Both the position numbers and the translations under genes were made by a program. Of a DNA stretch of 11,592 bases, positions 213 through 10,628 are shown in pieces. The stretch covers positions 1-11,592 of the forward strand of contig NZ_RCYB01000063.1 in the NCBI RefSeq assembly GCF_004168205.1. The letters are read 5' to 3'. Positions within the stretch are counted from its first letter, which is position 1, and each line of letters starts with the position of its first letter. Origin of the DNA: Catenibacterium sp. co_0103 (GTDB lineage Bacteria; Bacillota_I; Bacilli_A; Erysipelotrichales; Coprobacillaceae). The notes below the pieces were generated by a model. It was not told the origin of the DNA. It made no database searches and was given only the letters and a program-made list of their open reading frames with translations.

Positions 213-241
213 CAAACTTATTTTTAAGTTTGTCTTTTTTT
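213..241 (+). terminator. rho-independent terminator of the transposase gene
   Basis: A perfect 8-bp stem (CAAACTTA / TAAGTTTG) with a TTTT loop is followed directly by TCTTTTTTT on the plus strand. It lies 31 nt after the transposase stop codon. It overlaps the last bases of the convergent SWIM gene fragment (stop at 224-226). The minus strand lacks a good U-run, so it acts mainly on plus-strand transcripts. Confidence 0.8.
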
Positions 242-678
242 ATACGTTTTGATTGATTTTTGTTTCACACTTCTTAACTCTTCTACAATTTGGTAATAAT
301 GCTTTCTGCTTCCAGTAGATTCAGCCTGTTTTTCAACATTTTCTCGATATATCTGAAGCAGCCGTTCAGGATATTTCTCACTAAGCAAATCGGTATATTG
401 ATGCAGCAAATATTTATCGTCACTTCTTAAGAGAACGTCTAATAGCTGTTCATATAGTTGCTCTGTTTCTAATATTTCACATAAGAACCTTCCAGGAGTA
501 AGCTGTTCAATTATAGAGTCTCTTTCCTTGATCCATTCTTTATCAGAAAAGAGACTTCTCAGCTCAACATAATCCTCTAAATTAGTATCATTGAAAAAGA
601 GAATCAAATTCTTTAATTCTTCTCTGTAAGCTTTGATATTTCCCTGCTTCTTATAAATATCTTTCTTCAATTTTATAT
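224..678 (-). pseudogene. SWIM zinc-finger protein, C-terminal fragment (split by the element)
   Basis: This frame encodes about 150 residues and is the C-terminal part of the protein whose N-terminal part is at 8111-9212. Three points support this. The fragment has no ribosome site and no ATG; its only candidate start is a TTG at 668-670. The reading frame runs upstream across the element boundary in the same codon phase as the other piece (both have AAG TTT at the junction). The sequence (KKDIYKKQGN... KYPERLLQIYRENVEKQAE... TGSRKHYYQIVEELR) is the helical repeat tail seen in SWIM-domain proteins of Bacillota, as I recall them. It has no zinc ligands itself. The frame reads into the element as far as an in-frame TGA near 737, so it is probably not translated. 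Rejoined, the protein would be about 520 residues. Confidence 0.8.
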
Positions 679-706
679 TAAACTTGATATAGAAAATCCG
701 ATTATC
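679..706 (+). repeat. left terminal inverted repeat of the element
   Basis: Reading inward from the left end: TAAACTT, 3 nt, ATAGA, 6 nt, GATTATC. The right end read inward on the minus strand gives TAAACTT, 3 nt, ATAGA, 5 nt, GATTATC. These paired ends are the expected place for core-type integrase binding. The family role is known for Tn916; the assignment here is inference from position and symmetry. Confidence 0.7.
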
Positions 707-754
707 CGCATAAATACAGCATTTAAGGGCTGTTCATCACTTGAAAAAATAAGT

Positions 755-781
755 GTTTTACCACGAATTTACCATAATTGA
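755..781 (+). repeat. left arm-type integrase binding repeat
   Basis: The block starts GTTTTACCACGA and ends ATTGA. It recurs in the same orientation at 7946-7973 with one extra base and few changes. Each copy contains two tandem units close to TTTACCACGA. Direct repeats inside both ends are the Tn916 arrangement for binding the integrase N-terminal domain (DR-2 type sites). The role is inferred from location. Confidence 0.6.
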
Positions 782-806
782 ATATGAGTCTTGATATGAC
801 GAAATA

Positions 807-850
807 TAAAGGGAGATTGCACGTATAATAAAACCGCGTATCTCCCTTTA
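807..850 (-). terminator. inverted repeat after the ABC ATPase gene, possible terminator
   Basis: A perfect 11-bp inverted repeat (TAAAGGGAGAT at 807-817 and ATCTCCCTTTA at 840-850) with a 22-nt loop lies just past the ATPase stop codon at 856. On the minus strand it is followed by TATTTCG, so the U-run is weak. It probably ends or stabilises the bacteriocin operon transcript near the element's left end. Confidence 0.5.
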
Positions 851-855
851 ACAAA

Positions 856-1506
856 CTATCTAAAGTTTTCTACATTTATAACTCTGGAAAAACAATCGCA
901 CAAATTCATGTTGTGAGTGACCATGATTATAGTAATGCCCTTTTCATTTAATTCTTTCAAAAGTTTCATCACTATCAATTCGTTCTCTTTATCAAGTCCA
1001 GAAGTTGGTTCATCAGCTAATATAATCTGACTTCCTTGCAAAATCAATTTAATAATTGCAATTCGCTGTTGCTCTCCACCGCTTAACTGATATACTTTTT
1101 TGTTAAGCATGTCACTTAGCTCAAATTGCTTTAAATACTTATTGATTAGTTTCAGTTTTTCTTCTTTTTTTACTTTTTTATATTCAAGAGCTAATTTTAA
1201 ATTCCACAACACGCTTTCATCTTCTATTAGTCCATAATTTTGAAATAGATAGCCTATTGTATATCTTCTCAAAATCATAGCATTTTTACCGTTCATGGAC
1301 AAATTTTTATGACTATCAATAGTGATTGTTCCCTCGGATATATCAGTAATCAATCCTATTATATTTAAAAGTGTCGTTTTACCTGCCCCGCTTTTCCCTA
1401 CAAGCCCCACAAATTCGCCTTTTTCTATTTCTAAAGATAAATTTTCAAATAGAACCTGATTTTTCCCATATTCTTTTTTGACGTTCTTTAATGTAATCAA
1501 TGACAT
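856..1506 (-). CDS. ABC transporter ATP-binding protein, lactococcin-972 type
   Basis: The protein has 216 residues and a complete single ABC domain. Visible motifs are Walker A GKSGAGKT (37-44), a Q-loop FQN at Q89, the signature LSGGEQQR (141-148), Walker B IILADEP (161-167, catalytic E166) and the switch histidine in VTHN (H198). It is the size of MacB/LolD-like ATPases that work with FtsX/MacB-type permeases. The ATG lies 2 nt after the permease stop codon, so translation is probably coupled. In the lactococcin-972 group the order bacteriocin, large membrane protein, ATPase is characteristic, and the pair is thought to give export-linked functions or self-protection. The family is clear; the exact role (immunity or export) is inference. 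It is the last gene of the operon. Confidence 0.88.
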   Translation of the reverse strand: MSLITLKNVKKEYGKNQVLFENLSLEIEKGEFVGLVGKSGAGKTTLLNIIGLITDISEGTITIDSHKNLSMNGKNAMILRRYTIGYLFQNYGLIEDESVLWNLKLALEYKKVKKEEKLKLINKYLKQFELSDMLNKKVYQLSGGEQQRIAIIKLILQGSQIILADEPTSGLDKENELIVMKLLKELNEKGITIIMVTHNMNLCDCFSRVINVENFR

Positions 1507-1508
1507 AC

Positions 1509-3464
1509 TTATGCCCCCTTTTCAATCTCATATAAAGCGTTTGAGATATAAATTCTATAAAGCAATTCGCAGAATATGTAGTCAATAAGTATAATCGCAA
1601 AAAGGCAAGCAAAATAATAATTTATAGCAGTTAATACGCCTGATATAATTATTTCGATTCCCCAAAAAATATACCGATTTTTCAGTGTCCTAAAATGAGA
1701 GAATCCTAAAATCTCTTTTGCCGCATATCTCTTTCGATTTACAAAAATGTCCACATAATTTGAAATATACAAAATAAACAGTAAAGACACTATAAAGACA
1801 ATCGTAAACATAGTGAGTGTTTTAAGAACGAATGTCACATTTTCAAGTTGCATTAAATAAGGTGTAAGTAATGTTCCAGCTGTAACTAATTGCTCTAAAT
1901 CATATTCTGATAACAAAGAAGAAAAATCTTCTCTTGACTCCATTTGAAAAAATAAACACCTTGTATTTAAAGAATCCAAATAGTAAAGTCCTGCAAAATT
2001 GCCCGTATCAACAATGATAATAGGATTAGCCATATCCGAAAAACCATTTTCTGTATTGACTTTTATCGTAGAATCATCGTCTATATAAACAACATTAAAT
2101 TTATCAATAGTTTTTTCTTCTCCCGGTATTCCATAAAATTGATTGTAATTCATCAATCGGAAATATTCTTGCTTAATATATTCGCTAATAGAATTTTCAT
2201 CATTCTTATATTTATGTGGAACTAATACTGTTGGTTCACTAAATATATCTTCTCCCAATGGTTTTCCACTGAGCTGGATATTTGAAAATTCATTCAGATA
2301 ATTTCTATTTGCAATAACAAGCTGTTGTTCATAATAGGGGCGTGATGTCTGCAAACCACCGTCTGTCCTAAAATCACATAGTAGTGAATGGTTATGATTA
2401 TACATCTCTAATGTTTGTTCAGAATATTTTTCTAATATGTCTGTGTTTGCTAACGCATAATCATACTCCGATGAATTAAAACCATTAGCGGTATAATATC
2501 CGTCCAGATACTTATAATCTAAAACAGCTTGTTGGCTTTGTCTAAATGAGTTCCCCTGATTCAGCAATGAAATAATAGTGATAGCGATTATTACCGAAAA
2601 AATTATTTTTATAGCCTGAACTACAATATTTGTGCCGCTATTTAAAGTCTTATTTTTTATCATTGCCTCTAAAGAAACAAACTTAATTAAAATACTTGTA
2701 ATTAAAACACAAAGTATATTTATAGCTAAAACACCAATAAAGAACAGTACACTTGTTGCTAAATAAGAAAAATCATATCTGTTTGTTAATGCGTAATATA
2801 AATTTAGCAAGAACAGTAATACTAAACATATTACAGCAAAATATTTTATTACACTGGTAATTTGCTCCTTTAAAATATGTATAGTAGAAAAGCCCATGCT
2901 TTTTTTAATACCTATTTTTTTCAAACTATAAGACGTATAAATACAGTATATGATTTGAAGTACAATAAATAAGATTACAAAATTCAGAAGATTCAATTCT
3001 AATACCATACTATACGGAATAGCGTCATTTTCAAAGTTATTTATTGCGACGGACAGTTGAGAAGCTATCTCTTTAATTGCGTTAGCTGGTAAATCTGTAT
3101 AGAATACACCAACACTATCTAAAAAATCTTCCTTTTGCAATTCATGATATTGAAACAAAATAGAGGAAGATATAGGCTGTTTTTGTGTAAACTCATTTAA
3201 TGGATAGCAATATAAATCATAAACAGATTTATCTGTGGAAGTGAGCGTATTGTTAATGAGTTCTAATTTATTTTGAGAATATTCTTCTGTAAATATTGTA
3301 TAAAATTTGTCGAGAATTTCTGGCGATGTTTCTTCTAAAACATACCCTTTTAAATTCTCAGTAGCAATGTTATTCTTTTCATAAATGTTGTAAATAGAAG
3401 TATTAAAAATATATGCAAAGAGTATGACTTCAAGGAAAATAAAAATCTTTAAAAATTTTTTCAT
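1509..3464 (-). CDS. bacteriocin-associated multi-pass membrane protein (ABC permease)
   Basis: The start is placed at the ATG giving MKKFLKIF (651 residues). It has an AAAGGGG-type ribosome site about 10 nt upstream; the longer frame to 3512 adds 16 residues with no such signal. Membrane segments are seen at about 6-25, 157-178, 207-227, 237-260, 284-302, 550-575 and one or two between 600 and 645. Two large outside domains lie between TM1 and TM2 and between TM5 and TM6. Cytoplasmic loops with a KKIGIKKSMGFS-like motif after TM2, and AAKEILGFSHFRTLKNR after TM6, resemble the coupling helices of FtsX/MacB-type permeases. Size, topology and place between bacteriocin and ATPase match the bacteriocin-associated integral membrane proteins of lactococcin-972 loci. 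It should form a complex with the ATPase. Whether it exports a Sec-secreted bacteriocin or removes it from the membrane as immunity cannot be told from sequence. Confidence 0.8.
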   Translation of the reverse strand: MKKFLKIFIFLEVILFAYIFNTSIYNIYEKNNIATENLKGYVLEETSPEILDKFYTIFTEEYSQNKLELINNTLTSTDKSVYDLYCYPLNEFTQKQPISSSILFQYHELQKEDFLDSVGVFYTDLPANAIKEIASQLSVAINNFENDAIPYSMVLELNLLNFVILFIVLQIIYCIYTSYSLKKIGIKKSMGFSTIHILKEQITSVIKYFAVICLVLLFLLNLYYALTNRYDFSYLATSVLFFIGVLAINILCVLITSILIKFVSLEAMIKNKTLNSGTNIVVQAIKIIFSVIIAITIISLLNQGNSFRQSQQAVLDYKYLDGYYTANGFNSSEYDYALANTDILEKYSEQTLEMYNHNHSLLCDFRTDGGLQTSRPYYEQQLVIANRNYLNEFSNIQLSGKPLGEDIFSEPTVLVPHKYKNDENSISEYIKQEYFRLMNYNQFYGIPGEEKTIDKFNVVYIDDDSTIKVNTENGFSDMANPIIIVDTGNFAGLYYLDSLNTRCLFFQMESREDFSSLLSEYDLEQLVTAGTLLTPYLMQLENVTFVLKTLTMFTIVFIVSLLFILYISNYVDIFVNRKRYAAKEILGFSHFRTLKNRYIFWGIEIIISGVLTAINYYFACLFAIILIDYIFCELLYRIYISNALYEIEKGA

Positions 3465-3493
3465 AACATACGCCCCTTTCTTTGAAGAAATGT

Positions 3494-3526
3494 ATAAAAT
3501 AGGGCGGGACAAATAGCCCCACCCTA
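3494..3526 (-). terminator. attenuating terminator between bacteriocin and transporter genes
   Basis: On the minus strand, TAGGGTGGG pairs with CCCGCCCTA (one G-U pair) around a 9-nt loop, followed by TTTTAT. It lies 20-52 nt after the bacteriocin stop codon and before the permease ribosome site. Since no separate promoter is obvious for the transporter genes, partial read-through would give high bacteriocin and lower transporter expression. Confidence 0.65.
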
Positions 3527-3545
3527 GGTGTTTGAACTATTTTAC

Positions 3546-3860
3546 TTAATATGGATAATAATCATAATAAGATGTTTCGTTCGCCCACCAAACTCTCTTT
3601 GCATCTTTGTAAGCGTAGTTTGACTTGAATCCACTGGTATATGTATCTCCGCCGACCTTTACAGTTGCCTTTACCATGTAGTTGCGACTAATACCTGCTT
3701 TACGCCCAATTTCGGAATATACAATGGTGTCTGTTTGCCCTCCATTGTAGTACAAATCTCCACCCGCTACATCAATAGCCCACGCTGTAAGTGGAGCGCC
3801 GACAACCATAACTGCTGCTACAAGACCAACTACTTTCGTTCTCAACTTCTTTGCTCTCAT
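3546..3860 (-). CDS. lactococcin-972-like bacteriocin precursor
   Basis: The precursor has 104 residues. A Sec signal peptide is plain: basic start MRAKKLRTK, hydrophobic core VVGLVAAVMVVGAPL, and AWA before a likely cut after residue 28, giving a mature peptide of about 76 residues. The mature part begins IDVAGGDLYYNGG. It holds a KATVKVGGDTYTSG segment and ends in an aromatic tail, SYYDYYPY. GG plus aromatic residues near the N-terminus, an A.V..GG.TY.SG middle and a YY-rich end are what I recall for the lactococcin-972 family. Those are Sec-secreted bacteriocins without cysteines or modification; the type member binds lipid II and blocks septum formation. The following permease and ATPase match that family's operon. 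The ribosome site AAAGGAGG lies 9 nt upstream of ATG. No cysteines are present. Activity and target range are unknown. Confidence 0.78.
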   Translation of the reverse strand: MRAKKLRTKVVGLVAAVMVVGAPLTAWAIDVAGGDLYYNGGQTDTIVYSEIGRKAGISRNYMVKATVKVGGDTYTSGFKSNYAYKDAKRVWWANETSYYDYYPY

Positions 3861-3928
3861 TCGATAAACCTCCTTTCTCTTTTTTACTTTTTGATAGTTT
3901 TATGTCACGTACTGTTTTTGCTAACCTC

Positions 3929-3957
3929 AACATAACATATATTTCATTAAATGTCAA
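3929..3957 (-). promoter_or_regulatory. sigma-A promoter of the bacteriocin operon
   Basis: On the minus strand there is a consensus -35 TTGACA (3952-3957), a 17-bp spacer and a -10 TATGTT (3929-3934). The start of transcription would lie near 3921, giving an untranslated leader of about 60 nt before the bacteriocin ATG. The perfect -35 and ideal spacing predict strong transcription. Confidence 0.75.
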
Positions 3958-4172
3958 GTTATTTTTGTTTCTATTTTATATATGACCTCTTTGTTGCTAT
4001 CATATTTTGTGCATAATGCACAAAATCAAAGTACCAATATTAGTGCTTTCCACGATTGTACTTTTACAATGAAAAGACGAAGTACCTGTGATAAATTCAT
4101 TGCTCTAAAATTATTAGAGAAACTATACAATATAGCTATCCTTTTTTCTCTTGTCTGCCATAAACAGAAAAG
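3958..4172. other. AT-rich gap upstream of the bacteriocin promoter, no gene seen
   Basis: The stretch between the bacteriocin promoter and the xre terminator has no convincing gene on either strand. The open frames lack ribosome sites and look random. It contains a perfect 10-bp inverted repeat (4004-4026), a 6-bp one (ATTGTA/TACAAT, 4055-4070) and repeated AAGTACC words (4029-4035, 4079-4085). It may mark the join between cargo and backbone. Confidence 0.5.
4004..4026. promoter_or_regulatory. perfect inverted repeat upstream of the bacteriocin promoter
   Basis: ATTTTGTGCA (4004-4013) and TGCACAAAAT (4017-4026) flank a 3-bp centre TAA. It lies about 47 bp upstream of the bacteriocin -35 box. 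The symmetry and position fit a binding site for a dimeric regulator. No U-run makes it a terminator. No regulator can be assigned. Confidence 0.4.
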
Positions 4173-4272: not shown

Positions 4273-4908
4273 CTACTCGTCCCCGTTGTCAAAATCACTG
4301 ATTTTTAATACTTCCCGTAACAGCTCCATATCCTCTTTTGAGTTTGGGTTTATCTTCTTTACAACCTGATAAGGCGTACCGTACTTATGTCCCTCTGTGC
4401 TTTCCCCGAACATATCCATGCTGTATAAATCATCATAGCGGTTTAATACTTTCTGAAATTTCAAGTGCTGGATAAATTCCTTGATAGGGTAAAGGTCGGA
4501 CGCTTGTATGTCTGTTCCGCTGATATAGTCTGTGATATATTTCCGCAACTGTTCCAGCTCATATTCCAGCCATTCTTCCTCGCTGTCAAAGAAGTTATCA
4601 TAGTGTCCATGTTTCAACTCTGCGTTTAGGCGTTCTTCCGTCCTTAAAAACTGGCATACCTCCTTTTCCGCCTGTTGGACAAACTTCCATTCCCCCGACA
4701 ACAATTCATTGGGCGTTACTCCCAGTACGTCCATTATCTTTTCCAGCGTGTCAAAGGTCGGATAGTTTACCCCTCGTTCAATCTTGGAAAGGCTCTGCAT
4801 ATTGATACCGATGGCGTCCGCAAGCTCCTGCTGTTTCATTTTCCTGTGTTTTCTTATGGTCTGTATGTTCTCCCCTAAAAAATTTATTTTCTTTGTATCA
4901 TGCTCCAT
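4273..4908 (-). CDS. XRE-family transcriptional regulator
   Basis: The protein has 211 residues. Residues 10-65 form a classic HTH_3 domain (IRKHRKMKQQELADAIGINMQSLSKIERGV... followed by TFDTLEKIMDVLGVTPNELL). The remaining 140 residues are acidic and helical, with no known domain that I recognise; they probably serve dimerisation or sensing. It is divergent from the relaxase gene. Its own promoter (4959-4987) and the relaxase promoter (4998-5026) flank and overlap a perfect palindrome at 4983-5002, the expected operator for such a dimer. It is therefore probably an autorepressor that also controls relaxase and downstream mobility genes. The best Shine-Dalgarno (AAAGGAG) is about 15 nt from ATG, farther than ideal, with a weaker AAGAAG closer. 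Confidence 0.88.
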   Translation of the reverse strand: MEHDTKKINFLGENIQTIRKHRKMKQQELADAIGINMQSLSKIERGVNYPTFDTLEKIMDVLGVTPNELLSGEWKFVQQAEKEVCQFLRTEERLNAELKHGHYDNFFDSEEEWLEYELEQLRKYITDYISGTDIQASDLYPIKEFIQHLKFQKVLNRYDDLYSMDMFGESTEGHKYGTPYQVVKKINPNSKEDMELLREVLKISDFDNGDE

Positions 4909-5369: not shown

Positions 5370-6456
5370 ATGCACTATAACTACACACAAAAATTTATCC
5401 GTTAAGATTGATTACATCAGCATTGTATTTGATACTGCAACCGCAGAAGATGTTATCATGCACATTTTAGGTTTACCGACTGACATTTTCAATGTCTATC
5501 CGGCAAGCGTTAAATTCAAGACGTATCAGGCGCGTTGGGAAATCGGGGACATTTATGTATCGGGGAACGCAAAAAAGACAGAGGACAACCCACAAGGGCT
5601 TGGCTGTTATCTCGTGATGACAGGCAGGGGGTGTGATGATATTTTCCGTATCCTTGATGAAAACGGCTTGACCTTTGGGGATATGTTTGAACGCTGTGAA
5701 AGAAGATATGGGACGGGCAACTATCATTTCACAAGGCTGGACGTTGCCATTGACGACAGGAACGAAACGCCGTTCTTTACCATAGAGCAGATAAAGAAGA
5801 AATGCGAAAAAGAGGAATTTGTTTCCAACAGTGAGGACTATCACTTTGACGAGAGCAAGTTTGACGATTTTAACACCGCAAAGACCGTCTATATCGGGGC
5901 TGGAAAATCAGGGCTTTCCTACCGCTTTTATGACAAAGACAAAGAAGTGTGCGGCAAATACAACAGGACGCTTGATGAAGTCGGGAGTTGGAAACGGACG
6001 GAAATGCAACTGCGTGATGAAAAGGCTCATGCCTTTGCTATGGCATTTCAGGAAAGACCGCTGGAGATTGGGGAACTGGCTTTCGGACTGCTGGCGGACA
6101 ACCTGCGTTTTGTCGTGGCAAACAGGAACGAGAGCAACAAAAGCAGGTGGAAAACGTGCCGTTTCTGGCAACGCTTTTTAGGGGCTGTGGAACTCTTAAA
6201 ACTCCATGTACCCACACCGCATAATTCCCTTGAAGAAACGCAACAGTGGCTTACAGAGGGTGGTGTCATATCCGCTGTCAAAGGCTTTTACTTCCTCGAA
6301 TCCCATGACGCTCTAGGTGGACTGGAACGTGTCGGGGATATGGTAGACAGGGCAAGGTACAGCACTTCCCTTTCCAGCAAGCTGACCGCCCATTTACAGC
6401 GGATAGACAGGACAGAACTGATACCCTATGTCCAGTATGACACAAAGAACAGGTAG
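5370..6456 (+). CDS. MOB_T relaxase / Rep_trans replication initiation factor (probable early frameshift)
   Basis: The main frame from ATG 5458 gives 332 residues of a Rep_trans-family protein, related to Tn916 Orf20 and ICEBs1 NicK. Those nick one DNA strand at oriT and stay bound through a tyrosine. Seen are FTRLDVAIDD (91-100, acidic metal-binding block), YIGAGKS...YRFYDKDKE (145-163, likely nucleophile Y158) and WKRTEMQLR (178-186). Coding clearly begins earlier: the same frame reads LSVKIDYISIVFDTATAEDVI before M1, but it has no start codon. ATG 5370 (MHYNYTQ) lies after AAAGGAG, and dropping one A from the run at 5389-5393 joins MHYNYTQN to LSVKIDY, a 361-residue protein of normal family form. 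So a +1 insertion, real or an error, truncates translation to 11 residues. The Shine-Dalgarno spacing to 5370 is short (2 nt). Initiation at 5458 would lose about 30 residues. Confidence 0.85.
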
Positions 6457-6468
6457 GGGGGTGGCATG

Positions 6469-6675
6469 ATGAACGAAAAGATTGATATTCCCGTATGGGA
6501 AAAATACACCCTTACCATTGAGGAAGCGTCAAGATACTTCACAATCGGGCAGAACAAGCTCCGCCGACTGGTGGAAGAAAACCGACACGGGGACTGGTAT
6601 GTGATGAACGGCAACCGTATCTTGATTAAGAAAAAACAGTTTGAGAAATTTATGGATAAAACAGACGTAATCTAA
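6469..6675 (+). CDS. xis: excisionase, Tn916 Xis type
   Basis: This is a small basic protein of 68 residues from the second of two adjacent ATGs (6466 adds one Met). Its beginning, [20 protein letters not shown], and its later segments [10 protein letters not shown] and [18 protein letters not shown] align closely with Tn916 Xis. That protein is a winged-helix DNA-bending factor that directs the integrase toward excision. The second ATG is preferred because it gives better spacing from the GGGGGTGG sequence after the relaxase stop (6454-6456), and it matches the family N-terminus. It is likely co-transcribed with the relaxase gene. The frame is intact, unlike its integrase partner. Confidence 0.92.
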
Positions 6676-6752: not shown

Positions 6753-7944
6753 ATGTCGGAAAAAAGACGGGACAGCAAAGGTCGCCTCTTAAAGACAGGA
6801 GAGAGCCAGAGAGCAGACGGGAGATACTTATACAAATATGTGGACAAGGCTGGAAAGACAAGGTATGCCTATTCATGGAAACTTGTACCGACAGACCCCG
6901 TACCTAAAGGAAAGAGGGACGGGAAATCCCTAAGGGAATTAGAAACGGAGATACAAAGGGATTTACAGGACGGTATCGACACGACAGGCGGAAAAATGAC
7001 GCTGTGCCAGCTATACGCTAAACAGAACGCCCAGAGAGCCAACGTAAAGGAAAGCACAAGGCAGGGCAGGAAAAAGCTCATGCGGACATTAGAGGGCGAT
7101 ATACTGGGGGGCTAGGAGCATTGACAGCATACGCCTTTCAGACGCTAAGGAATGGGCGTTACGCATGAAAGACAGGGGCTATGCTTATCAGACCATAAGC
7201 AATTATAAACGCTCGTTAAATGCGTCATTCCGCATTGCCATAGCGGACGACCTCGTGAGGAAGAACCCCTTTGATTTCAAGCTGAATGAAGTCATAGAGG
7301 ACGACAGGACGCCACGGCAGGCATTGACCGAGGAACAGGAAGAAAGGCTCTTGTCCTTTGCCAGCAAAGACAGGACATACAGCAAGTATTATGACGCAAT
7401 CGTGATACTGTTAAAAACAGGACTCCGTATCTCAGAACTGTGTGGACTGACAAGGCAGGATATAGACTTTGAAAATGACGTTATCCATGTAGACCACCAG
7501 CTATTATCCAGCAAGGAAACAGGCTACTATATCGAAACGCCAAAGACGAAAAGCGGTGTGCGCGATGTCCCCATGAGCGAGGAAGTGAAACAGGCGTTTA
7601 GGCGTGTCATGGCGGTCAAGCCAAAGGCAGAGCCGATAGGGATAGGTGGGTACAGCGGTTTCCTCTTTCTGAACGGGAAAGGCTGTCCTATGACAAACGC
7701 CTATTATACTTCTACTTTCGCTAATCTGAGGAAGAAATATAACAAGAGCCATGAGGACAGCTTACCAAAGATAACGCCCCATATCCTGCGCCATACGTTC
7801 TGTACCAGACTTGCCAACAGGAATATGAACCCTAAGAGTTTACAGTACATCATGGGACACGCAAACATCAGTATCACGCTGAACCTGTACGCCCATGCGT
7901 CCATAGAGAACGTCAAGGCAGAATTAAGGAGCATGGTAGCCTAA
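6753..7944 (+). pseudogene. int: tyrosine integrase, Tn916 Int type, frameshifted
   Basis: The gene starts with AAAGGAG and ATG 6753 (MSEKRRDSKGRLLKTGESQR), which is almost the Tn916 Int N-terminus with its arm-binding domain. The frame stops after LMRTLEGDILGG at 7115. The rest of the protein continues in another frame to 7944. Removing one G from the six-G run at 7106-7111 gives DILGARSIDSIRLSDAKEW and a continuous protein of 396 residues, near the 405 of Tn916 Int. In that reading the catalytic residues are all present: R225 (TGLRISE), a lysine in TPKTKSG, H343 and R346 (HILRH), H369 (GHAN) and nucleophile Y379 (LNLYAH). The 259-residue downstream piece alone holds the catalytic domain but lacks the arm-binding region. 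Either the integrase is dead or the base is a sequencing error. The stop codon borders the right arm-type repeat. Confidence 0.92.
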
Positions 7945-7973: not shown

Positions 7974-8027
7974 CCGTGAGAAAAAGTGATAAAACGTGGC
8001 GGTTTGGAAGTATCAACCGAAAAGAGA

Positions 8028-8067
8028 AATGCCCGTAAAGCTGATAAAATAAGGCTTTGCGGACATT
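8028..8067 (+). terminator. hairpin after int, possible terminator
   Basis: AATGCCCGTAAAGC (8028-8041) and GCTTTGCGGACATT (8054-8067) pair over 14 positions with one mismatch and one G-U. No U-run follows on the plus strand. It may end int transcription before the host gene or simply be a structural part of the right end. Confidence 0.4.
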
Positions 8068-8083
8068 TAAGAAGATATGAAAA

Positions 8084-8110
8084 GATAATCAAAAATCTAT
8101 TTTAAGTTTA
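8084..8110 (-). repeat. right terminal inverted repeat of the element
   Basis: Read inward on the minus strand from 8110: TAAACTT, 3 nt, ATAGA, 5 nt, GATTATC, matching the left end (679-706). Bases 8111-8116 would be the coupling bases. The host gene resumes beyond, at AACTTCATACG. Confidence 0.7.
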
Positions 8111-9212
8111 TTTTAAACTTCATACGATCTTGATTTTCATATTCAAAATCAATACATTCGTCAATATAATCTAAAGCCTTGTCATATTCTTTATTATTAA
8201 TACAAGTATAGACACAGTCCATTCTAATAGGAATATATTCCCAGTACTTTTTATAAACAGCACTTATCTCCTTCTTTGATGCTTTATTCTTCTTTAAGAG
8301 TTCAAGATACTTTTTCGCAAATCCTTCAATTGCATATCCTCTATTAAAAATATCATCATGACTCTCTATGTAGTCTAACTGTTTTTTCACAAGATCAAGC
8401 TTCAGCTTTAAGAATTCTTTACCACTTAAACAATCAAAAAATATTTCAATAATCTTTTGGCTATCATAATAATCTCTCATGCTGTTGAGGTATTGTCCTA
8501 ATTCAACAAAAGCTTCTAATCTTTCTAAGTCATCCATACACATAATTATATTTGCCCATTGGCTTATAATGATAACAGAAAGTGCAACCGTTTCACCTCC
8601 ATTATCCTCAATATCTAGCTTATAAAATACTTCATAAGCTTTTAATAAGAATCTAAATGCGAGAGAATATTGATCCCTTTTCTTTAAAACATCAAGCCAC
8701 TTATCAACAGCATCTTCATAGTTATCACAAAAATCACGGCTAAATTCATAATCGATATAATGATAACCATTACTATAAGAATCACAAACCCCCTCCAAAT
8801 CATCAATCATTGTAGTCAAAGAAAATTCATTTTGTGTATATTGTTTAAAGGTTTCTACTAAATTAGGATTATCATCAAGTACTTGAATAAGAAATGATCG
8901 TACATCCTCTTCTGAAGCATCTTCAACAAGCTGTAAACTATCTATTTCTGGATGAGTCACTCTTAGTTGCCACTCATATAAAACAGCTGCCATGTGCTTA
9001 CAATTATGTCCATCTAATGCATAAGGACAATCACAGGACATGCCTATTATTTTATTTCCATTTAATTTAATTTCTACATGATAAAAATCTGTCCCATTAA
9101 CAACTGCTTTAATCCTATTAGAATTAATACGTAAATCTTCTACGCGATCATCAAAATAATAGTCATACCCCCTATCCAATATTCGTTTTTGAAAATAAGT
9201 TTCCCATTCCAT
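8097..9212 (-). pseudogene. SWIM zinc-finger protein, N-terminal fragment (split by the element)
   Basis: The start is the ATG giving MEWETYFQKR, with GGGAGGT 6 nt upstream; the upstream in-frame ATG overlaps that ribosome site and is unlikely. The frame holds 371 residues. C60, C62, C71 and H73 form the SWIM zinc motif (CDC...CKH), preceded by a beta-rich segment and followed by helical repeats. SWIM domains bind zinc and may contact DNA or protein; the cellular role of this protein is unknown. The last few codons (KINLK then TAG) belong to the element's right end. The true continuation lies at 224-678. The truncated product keeps the zinc domain and might still be made. A -10-like TATAAT (9238-9243 on the complement) lies 26 nt upstream with no good -35. 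Confidence 0.85.
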
Positions 9213-9245
9213 ATAAGCACCTCCCATATATAGTTCTATTATACT

Positions 9246-9285: not shown

Positions 9286-9813
9286 TCATATAAAAACCAC
9301 AATTTCATTATTCAACTCTGCCATACCATCTTTCATATCAATGAAGTCATCTAGAATACCTTGTTCATCGAAAATATGGTTAAGTAAATCCTTTCCTTTT
9401 AATATTTCTATTTTTTCAGAAAACCAACAATCCTCCTTAATAAAACATAATTCATAATCATTTAAGCTAAATATAATAGCTTTGGTATCCCACACATCAT
9501 AAGATATTCTGTCATTCTTTTCCAATACAATATGTTCATTTAATAAAATAACCTTTGATATAATCTGATTTACATTTACCGTAATCTGAGTATTATCAGG
9601 ACCATTTCTATAAGAATCAGATATTCTATACACTGTATTTTCATTCTCTAATAAAAAGTAATCTAATTCTTCATATTCATTTATTAAACAATATACATTA
9701 TCACCAATTTGAATATCTACCATTTCTGTTATAGTATCTGTACATTTGTATGATGTTATTTGTAATCCCACAAAAGATTGCATTAGTTTTGTATCAAATC
9801 TAAAATCATACAT
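9286..9813 (-). CDS. uncharacterised 175-residue acidic protein
   Basis: I do not recognise this protein. It begins MYDFRFDTKLMQSFVGLQI, has no signal peptide or membrane segment, and is acidic with alternating beta-like stretches (VDIQIGDNVYCLINEYEELDYFLLENENTVYRIS; KAIIFSLNDYELCFIKED). The pattern resembles small beta-rich immunity or housekeeping proteins of unknown role, but that is only an impression. ATG 9813 has AGGGGG 9 nt upstream. It lies 77 nt after the deacetylase stop, on the same strand, and may be the last gene of that transcript. Its terminator follows at once. A 7-bp inverted repeat lies just upstream (9833-9847). Confidence 0.7.
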   Translation of the reverse strand: MYDFRFDTKLMQSFVGLQITSYKCTDTITEMVDIQIGDNVYCLINEYEELDYFLLENENTVYRISDSYRNGPDNTQITVNVNQIISKVILLNEHIVLEKNDRISYDVWDTKAIIFSLNDYELCFIKEDCWFSEKIEILKGKDLLNHIFDEQGILDDFIDMKDGMAELNNEIVVFI

Positions 9814-9832
9814 TCTTATTATATCCCCCTAA

Positions 9833-9847
9833 ATACTTTAAAAGTAT
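9833..9847. repeat. short palindrome before the unknown gene
   Basis: ATACTTT and AAAGTAT flank a single central A, about 20 bp upstream of the ATG at 9813 and next to its ribosome site. It could be a small operator or a chance AT-rich palindrome. Confidence 0.25.
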
Positions 9848-9890
9848 ACATGATAGTTTTTCCATGTTCATTTAGTAGAATAGTAGATTA

Positions 9891-10628
9891 CTATAAGGTT
9901 ACTAGTTGAATATCATTTTGTTTAATCCAATCCTTTAACCAATCACTACACAAAAAATCACATTCCATTGGTCTAATAAGCGTATAAGAGGAATTCGTTA
10001 AGATATATTGATCTAAATAACCAGGATGAAATATTGCAATACAGCATTCATTATCTTTCAACATTCCTAAATTATCTTCCATATACCTTTTTGGATCATA
10101 TAATCCTCTTTCATCAAAATGAATCATACCTAATCCATGAATATGATTTTCACTTACCCATTGAGGATCCATAGGATTCACAAAAAATAAACCATGTCTT
10201 TTTGCAACATTTTCTAATGCTTTCATATAATTAAAAGAAAATACAGCATGGCCTTCAAAATAATGTGGTTTAAATCCTGTGATTTCAATAAAATGATTTA
10301 ATTGAGCTTCTATTTCCTTTTCACATTCTTCAATGTTAATTGTATCTTCTTTTCTTTTATTAATAACTTTACTTGAATAGAATTCACCATTTTCATCTAC
10401 TAGACTTGGAATCTCTTCAGGAGAACATAGAGGCTTTCCTAAACAAATGTTTGTATGCTGGCCTACAGATACATTACAATCTTTAATCATTTCATATCCA
10501 TCTAAAGCATGTTCCATATTAGGCATGAGTCCTACACTTGTAATAACACCATCTTTAATGGCTTTACAAATTCCGCAATTCACTCCTTCACTTATTCCCA
10601 AATCATCCGCTCTCATTATTAACTTCAT
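9891..10628 (-). CDS. YdjC/ChbG-family carbohydrate deacetylase
   Basis: The protein has 245 residues, normal for the YdjC family of metal-dependent deacetylases; ChbG removes acetyl groups from chitooligosaccharides such as phosphorylated chitobiose. The sequence shows the family start, MKLIMRADDLGISEGVNCGI, with D8 and D9, then VGQHTN with H58, GFKPHYFEGH with H127, and FHPGY with H201. These are the expected metal-binding and catalytic positions. No signal peptide is present, so it acts in the cytoplasm, probably on an imported, phosphorylated sugar. Its ATG lies 2 nt after the kinase stop codon, with AAAGGAGAA inside the end of the kinase gene. The pair is an operon and translation may be coupled. 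The exact substrate is unknown. Confidence 0.85.
   Translation of the reverse strand: MKLIMRADDLGISEGVNCGICKAIKDGVITSVGLMPNMEHALDGYEMIKDCNVSVGQHTNICLGKPLCSPEEIPSLVDENGEFYSSKVINKRKEDTINIEECEKEIEAQLNHFIEITGFKPHYFEGHAVFSFNYMKALENVAKRHGLFFVNPMDPQWVSENHIHGLGMIHFDERGLYDPKRYMEDNLGMLKDNECCIAIFHPGYLDQYILTNSSYTLIRPMECDFLCSDWLKDWIKQNDIQLVTL

Follow-up and report, generated by a model that had tools for sequence, protein, structure and literature searches.

Can a mobile element whose relatives carry antibiotic-resistance genes also carry a bacteriocin, and what would the genes next to that bacteriocin do? These questions are raised by the 11,592-nt window analyzed here, positions 1 to 11,592 of contig NZ_RCYB01000063.1 from Catenibacterium sp. 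co_0103 (assembly GCF_004168205.1). A sequence-only reading had described a three-gene bacteriocin operon of lactococcin-972 type on a Tn916-related element, with the whole element spreading a growth-inhibiting trait together with its protection genes. From sequence comparison and structure modeling, we consider it likely that this is a real, divergent lactococcin-972-type operon carried as cargo by a Tn916-related mobilizable element (Table 1).

Table 1 Features of the window, with positions counted from its first nucleotide.
Feature	Position	Strand	Details
SWIM-domain gene, 3' part	224..670	-	First 136 residues correspond to P0121 residues 375-510, 97.8% identity
Left junction	678..685		8-base repeat TTAAACTT, also at the right junction (8113-8120)
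ABC ATPase, read as part of a protection pair	856..1506	-	216 aa; PF00005, 108.6 bits; TIGR03608, 244.8 bits (cut-off 254.85)
Multi-pass membrane protein, read as immunity partner	1509..3464	-	651 aa; TIGR01654, 50.4 bits over residues 1-627 (cut-off 189.35)
Intrinsic-terminator-like hairpin, precursor/membrane gene gap	3500..3526	-	11 pairs, 7 of them G-C; T tail
Bacteriocin precursor	3546..3860	-	ORF of 104 aa, no cysteine
Predicted mature peptide	3549..3776	-	76 aa; putative cleavage after A-W-A
Promoter-like site, extended -10	3929..3957	-	TTGACA-17-TATGTT with TG; 10 of 12 matches
Xre-type regulator	4273..4908	-	211 aa; PF01381
Rep_trans/MobT-type relaxase	5458..6456	+	332 aa; PF02486, 132.1 bits; MobT NF041493, 89.7 bits (cut-off 600)
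Excisionase	6466..6675	+	69 aa; PF09035 (Tn916-Xis), 66.6 bits
Tyrosine integrase piece 1, DNA-binding domain	6753..7115	+	PF02920
Tyrosine integrase piece 2, catalytic domain	7165..7944	+	PF00589
Right end of element	8020..8112		76-94 bases, 86-93% identical at the right ends of L036, L037, L038 and L040; 78% in L039
SWIM-domain gene, 5' part	8097..9227	-	PF04434; 8097-8112 lie inside the element's end

All three open reading frames (ORFs) were found at the positions, in the order and with the sizes first described, and read on the minus strand from the cysteine-free precursor through the membrane protein to the ATPase. Each start has a purine-rich stretch resembling a ribosome-binding site 5' of it. 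The precursor begins with a basic N-terminus and a single hydrophobic stretch (residues 10-24), followed by a site between A-W-A and I, a pattern that by inspection suggests Sec export. Since the three genes are intact and in the same order in five of 17 related loci (loci are labeled L below), we do not regard the operon as a product of chance. G+C content is 30.5% in the cargo, 44.8% in the element's backbone and about 30% in the host flanks. The promoter called strong in the sequence-only reading matches an extended -10 consensus well, but promoter-like sites are plentiful between positions 600 and 8200 (33 observed vs 23.4 ± 4.7 in shuffles), so that the match alone means little. Terminator-like sites overall do not exceed chance (6 vs 5.4 ± 2.6 expected). 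At the place equivalent to the hairpin behind the precursor, a strong hairpin is present in six of eight relatives (L001, L002, L003, L004, L009 and L012), with none in L010 and a weak one in L044.

Direct placement of the precursor in the lactococcin-972 family through its curated models had been proposed as a check, and we rejected this route after it gave no match. At E values up to 10, the precursor matched no Pfam family (PF09683 included) and no lactococcin model of NCBIfam (TIGR01653 included; one unrelated match, E 0.064), although the HMMER filters discard most matches with E above about 0.1 despite this setting. Known members (L026, L027, L031 and L033) pass both models. We found 171 relatives of the precursor at E up to 10, and a Pfam domain in none of the 120 listed. 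Two more distant ones (L043 and L047, 42% identity) are each followed by the same two genes, and their precursors match neither PF09683 nor TIGR01653.

The case for the lactococcin-972 type is therefore carried by the predicted fold and by profile-profile comparison, not by the curated models. In our fold test the predicted structure matched that of lactococcin 972 (PDB 2LGN; 18% identity across the aligned fold), and the two best fold matches are both lactococcin-972-family proteins. When mature parts were aligned by hhalign to a profile of known members, the score was reached by none of 300 column shuffles. Such alignments gave P 2.4e-4 at a probability of only 43%, and P 0.01 without the bridges; with signal peptides included the probability was 96%, a figure inflated by those peptides. 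From this profile L030 was omitted (a PF09683 match whose ORF was not located), and L029, L032 and L034 were cut to their core. A first structure model had reached a pLDDT of 38 and was discarded; its alignment was redundant, still contained the signal peptides and had rows of odd length. A viral fold library yielded nothing useful. The operon order, which is also that of the plasmid lactococcin loci L025, L026, L027 and L029, adds to the support for the assignment. The two neighboring genes do match the models suggested for them, TIGR01654 and TIGR03608, but both fall below the cut-off; the TIGR01654 cut-off is also missed by the membrane partner of the recognized lactococcin L026 (102.4 bits).

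The carrier is supported, on sequence, as a Tn916-related integrative mobilizable element with a Tn916-type integrase and excisionase, its own relaxase and no mating-pore genes. The xre, relaxase, xis and int genes do lie to the right of the operon, and the Tn916-Xis, Tn916 integrase DNA-binding and Rep_trans relaxase families expected of such an element were all found. The 8-base repeats, the left start of homology to other loci (669-679 in L001, L002, L004 and L010) and the matching right ends of relatives together give an element of about 7.4 kb. The named genes take up this length, so that a pore module would not fit; the remaining ORFs are short or overlap these genes and were not scanned. 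The Xre protein is 82-95% identical to its counterparts in L002, L036, L037 and L039 and 54% identical in L038 (residues 1-180); the relaxase reaches 86-87% in L036-L038 and 26% in L039 (C. difficile). The integrase frame is broken before position 7165, where relatives are annotated with an uninterrupted gene; the break may be genuine or a sequencing error. Rfam gave no match at the gathering score and no tRNA was found, and PADLOC returned generic ATPase and HTH matches within the element.

The element interrupts a host gene for a SWIM-domain protein. Protein P0121 (543 aa) joins both halves, corresponding to the right-hand piece over residues 1-376 (99.5%) and to the left-hand piece over residues 375-510, and P0131 and P0152 likewise read through the insertion point; P0152 (94%) comes from Catenibacterium mitsuokai, of the class Erysipelotrichia. 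The empty site is thus seen at the protein level only, and at that level, with the P0121 halves contiguous, we found no case of the operon at this chromosomal place in strains without the element. P0121 gives no alignment to the final 12 residues of the left piece (window positions 224-260), which means that the host gene is different at its 3' end as well. Separately, the SWIM-domain protein encoded at 8097-9227 matches the PADLOC candidate PDC-S62 (E 2e-12), and the split gene may for this reason be a defense candidate.

Other cargo occupies the same place between the left end and xre in related elements, namely cfr(B) in E. faecium, dfrF in Enterococcus, tet(M) with mef(H) in C. difficile and small genes in Agathobacter, the resistance genes being as predicted in database records. 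Where they can be aligned (60-95% of the backbone), L036-L039 are 77-80% identical. These relatives, and an element with tet(M) (PMC10044688), bear out the view that the backbone is better known for resistance cargo. On the [Eubacterium] eligens plasmid NC_012780.1, both ends of the element family surround an Sdp-type locus (SdpI, SdpR and an ABC ATPase; L040, 1649-6076), in which neither the integrase nor the relaxase of the window has a relative. By its sequence, L040 appears to be a non-autonomous relative with another immunity-like cargo.

The same arrangement was also sought at other insertion sites, and Blautia hansenii provides one: from the left end into the relaxase, bacteriocin included, it is 97.1% identical over 5,214 bases to the contig end. 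Collinsella aerofaciens belongs to the phylum Actinomycetota. Its locus L001 (9057-12535) contains 3,479 bases that are 99.86% identical to window positions 678-4156 and lie in an acyltransferase-like gene (left part PF01757), whose flanks can be read as one gene, yet with a further frame break downstream. L004 has window positions 673-3965 alone (92%). In genome samples that overlap and whose composition was set by the search draw, the precursor occurred in 1 of 58, 2 of 397 and 3 of 283 genomes (broken in one of these three, G062), and PF09683 members in 0 of 58, 0 of 17, 2 of 291 and 5 of 397; 14 control genomes gave no match in the PF09683 search. A profile search for the precursor found 1 of 128 and 1 of 126 genomes, each time the center genome itself. 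Among relatives of G062, 13 of 99 matched in a search for the host gene, at 29-30% identity at best. No match to the precursor was obtained at E 1e-5 in 72,556 plasmid and 50,697 phage records, and of 56 stretches in viral contigs that fitted a pattern, none was confirmed as a precursor.

For the membrane protein and ATPase, we compared 17 related loci from genomes and looked for a precursor within 1.5 kb upstream of the pair. It was intact in five (L001, L002, L009, L010 and L012), broken in two (L004, in frame, and L011) and not found in ten. What L011 keeps (9536-9925) is the precursor's C-terminal third, preceded by N-terminal sequence that does not resemble the precursor; it has no Pfam match. 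Among the ten, the membrane gene is cut or broken in L013, L014 and L017, and the pair is whole in seven (L003, L005-L008, L015 and L016). In L003, around 9900-9950, only the precursor stretch has been lost, between short direct repeats; the promoter region, terminator and pair remain. An unlinked precursor was sought in the genomes of the 17 loci by the PF09683 search alone, with no match (0 of 17). The dN/dS ratios, which average over the entire history, are low for membrane protein and ATPase in the pairs compared among L005, L006, L007 and L015, five of the possible six (0.10-0.13 and 0.03-0.06), as they are between the window and L003 (0.15 and 0.15), the window and L008 (0.18 and 0.08), L003 and L008 (0.18 and 0.07), and the window and L010, both with a precursor (0.16 and 0.07). 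The pair is thus under selection with or without a linked precursor, as expected of a protection pair. The membrane protein has nine hydrophobic stretches (Kyte-Doolittle script). A similar pair lies on the E. faecium plasmid NC_017963.1 (L023, 5001-7621; membrane protein 79.5% and ABC protein 88% identical), beside transposase-like ORFs and with no recognizable precursor upstream. Matches came from 108 plasmid records (107 from Enterococcus), of which five cover at least 80%; the other Enterococcus records among the matches listed cover residues 1-32 only.

These observations bear on three other explanations. The pair might export or release the bacteriocin or an inducing peptide, as the database names say, with immunity encoded elsewhere: TIGR03608 is named "putative bacteriocin export ABC transporter", and the functions of the B and C genes lack experimental verification in any lactococcin 972 locus, according to PMC11796350. 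We consider this unlikely, given that the precursor carries a Sec-type signal pattern of its own, that seven intact pairs stand without a linked precursor (four under purifying selection) and that L003 has lost the precursor only. Protection is therefore the better reading of the pair, although, as the "protection genes" of the sequence-only reading, it is still a role we infer. It is improbable, in turn, that the precursor is a secreted non-toxic protein (a signal, adhesin or decoy) of the same fold and operon. Such a protein would suit the high conservation of the mature part in close relatives, the absence of the S-x-Y-x-H positions seen in known members and the failure of the curated models to match; the two best folds and the operon partners are nevertheless those of lactococcin loci, and mediterrocin is antibacterial although it shares just 18% identity with lactococcin 972 (PMC12345188).

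The remaining explanation would make the cargo stretch (about 678-4156) an independent mobile unit that lies in this element incidentally; we judge it rather unlikely. L001 holds exactly this stretch, relatives of the window's int, xis, xre and relaxase are all absent from its 21.7-kb locus, and L004 is comparable with its 673-3965. Against this, the right borders differ by locus (3965 in L004, 4156 in L001, 4542 in L010 and past 5881 in L002), a pattern that fits decay of the full element better than it fits a separate unit; the cargo stretch has no recombinase gene; and an empty L001 allele was found in none of 58 genomes. With the integrase frame broken here and a bacteriocin-only copy in Collinsella, the original claim that the whole element spreads the trait goes further than these data.

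In the mechanism we propose, the element of about 7.4 kb inside the SWIM-domain gene carries an AT-rich three-gene cargo whose precursor would be exported via Sec and cleaved to a 76-residue, cysteine-free protein with a predicted beta-strand fold of the lactococcin-972 kind. If it acts as lactococcin 972 does, the mature peptide may attach to lipid II at the septa of sensitive neighbors and halt their growth. The terminator after the precursor would keep its product in excess over the two downstream products, and the membrane protein and ABC ATPase would protect the producer by clearing the bacteriocin from the membrane or blocking it there. Xre, relaxase, Xis and Int would serve movement of the element, which, judging from its family, could use the pore of a resident conjugative element.

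Lactococcin 972 itself binds lipid II and inhibits septum formation (PMC11796350, PMC12345188), and was first reported from a plasmid, going by a title that PMC12345188 cites, as opposed to the integrative element here. Its family models match known members but not this precursor, and its mature form has 66 residues against the predicted 76; S-x-Y-x-H likewise separates known members from the peptide described here. Similar by description, though not compared by sequence, is mediterrocin of Mediterraneibacter gnavus (PMC12345188), also from gut Bacillota, with a Sec-type precursor, a seven-transmembrane DUF1430 protein and an ABC protein, adjoining mobile genes and an integrase, a wide distribution in gut species, and a predicted lactococcin-972 fold at low identity. 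It differs in its 114-aa precursor and 89-residue mature form (104 and a predicted 76 here) and in carrying a lactococcin 972 family annotation. Formosin D, which entered the PDB (9HKJ) as a bacteriocin of the lactococcin 972 family, shows 15% identity; all five hits of a literature search for it concern plant compounds of that name. IME_SDSE_HUB-4529 and its relatives (PMC10044688), set beside our element by description and not by sequence, are alike in integrase, excisionase, MOBT relaxase, a cargo gene and varied insertion sites, but differ in cargo (tet(M)) and length (9,352 bp); that paper reports similar structures in Catenibacterium. Lactococcin-972-group ABC genes are among genes common to several gut genera (PMC10782964).

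Family bacteriocins beside mobile genes (PMC12345188) or in a genomic island, as in Brevibacterium (PMC5719810), are thus already in print. New here are the unrecognized precursor group, the resistance-carrying backbone as its site, and the retention of the partner pair without a linked precursor; in the literature covered by our searches, this peptide is not named and no lactococcin-972-type operon on a MobT mobilizable element appears. More tentatively, and with considerable doubt, the precursor may found an unrecognized subfamily of the lactococcin-972 fold that passes between phyla as short cargo, and its pair may be a self-contained, transferable module of resistance to bacteriocins that bind lipid II, which non-producers retain just as the resistance genes on the same backbone are retained. 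The locus adds a bacteriocin group overlooked by curated models, and its operon, of which another phylum has a near-identical copy, fills the slot where the same backbone holds cfr(B), dfrF or tet(M). Because the pair also occurs naturally with no precursor linked to it, there is a direct route to testing the immunity role, which PMC11796350 describes as unverified in any lactococcin 972 locus.

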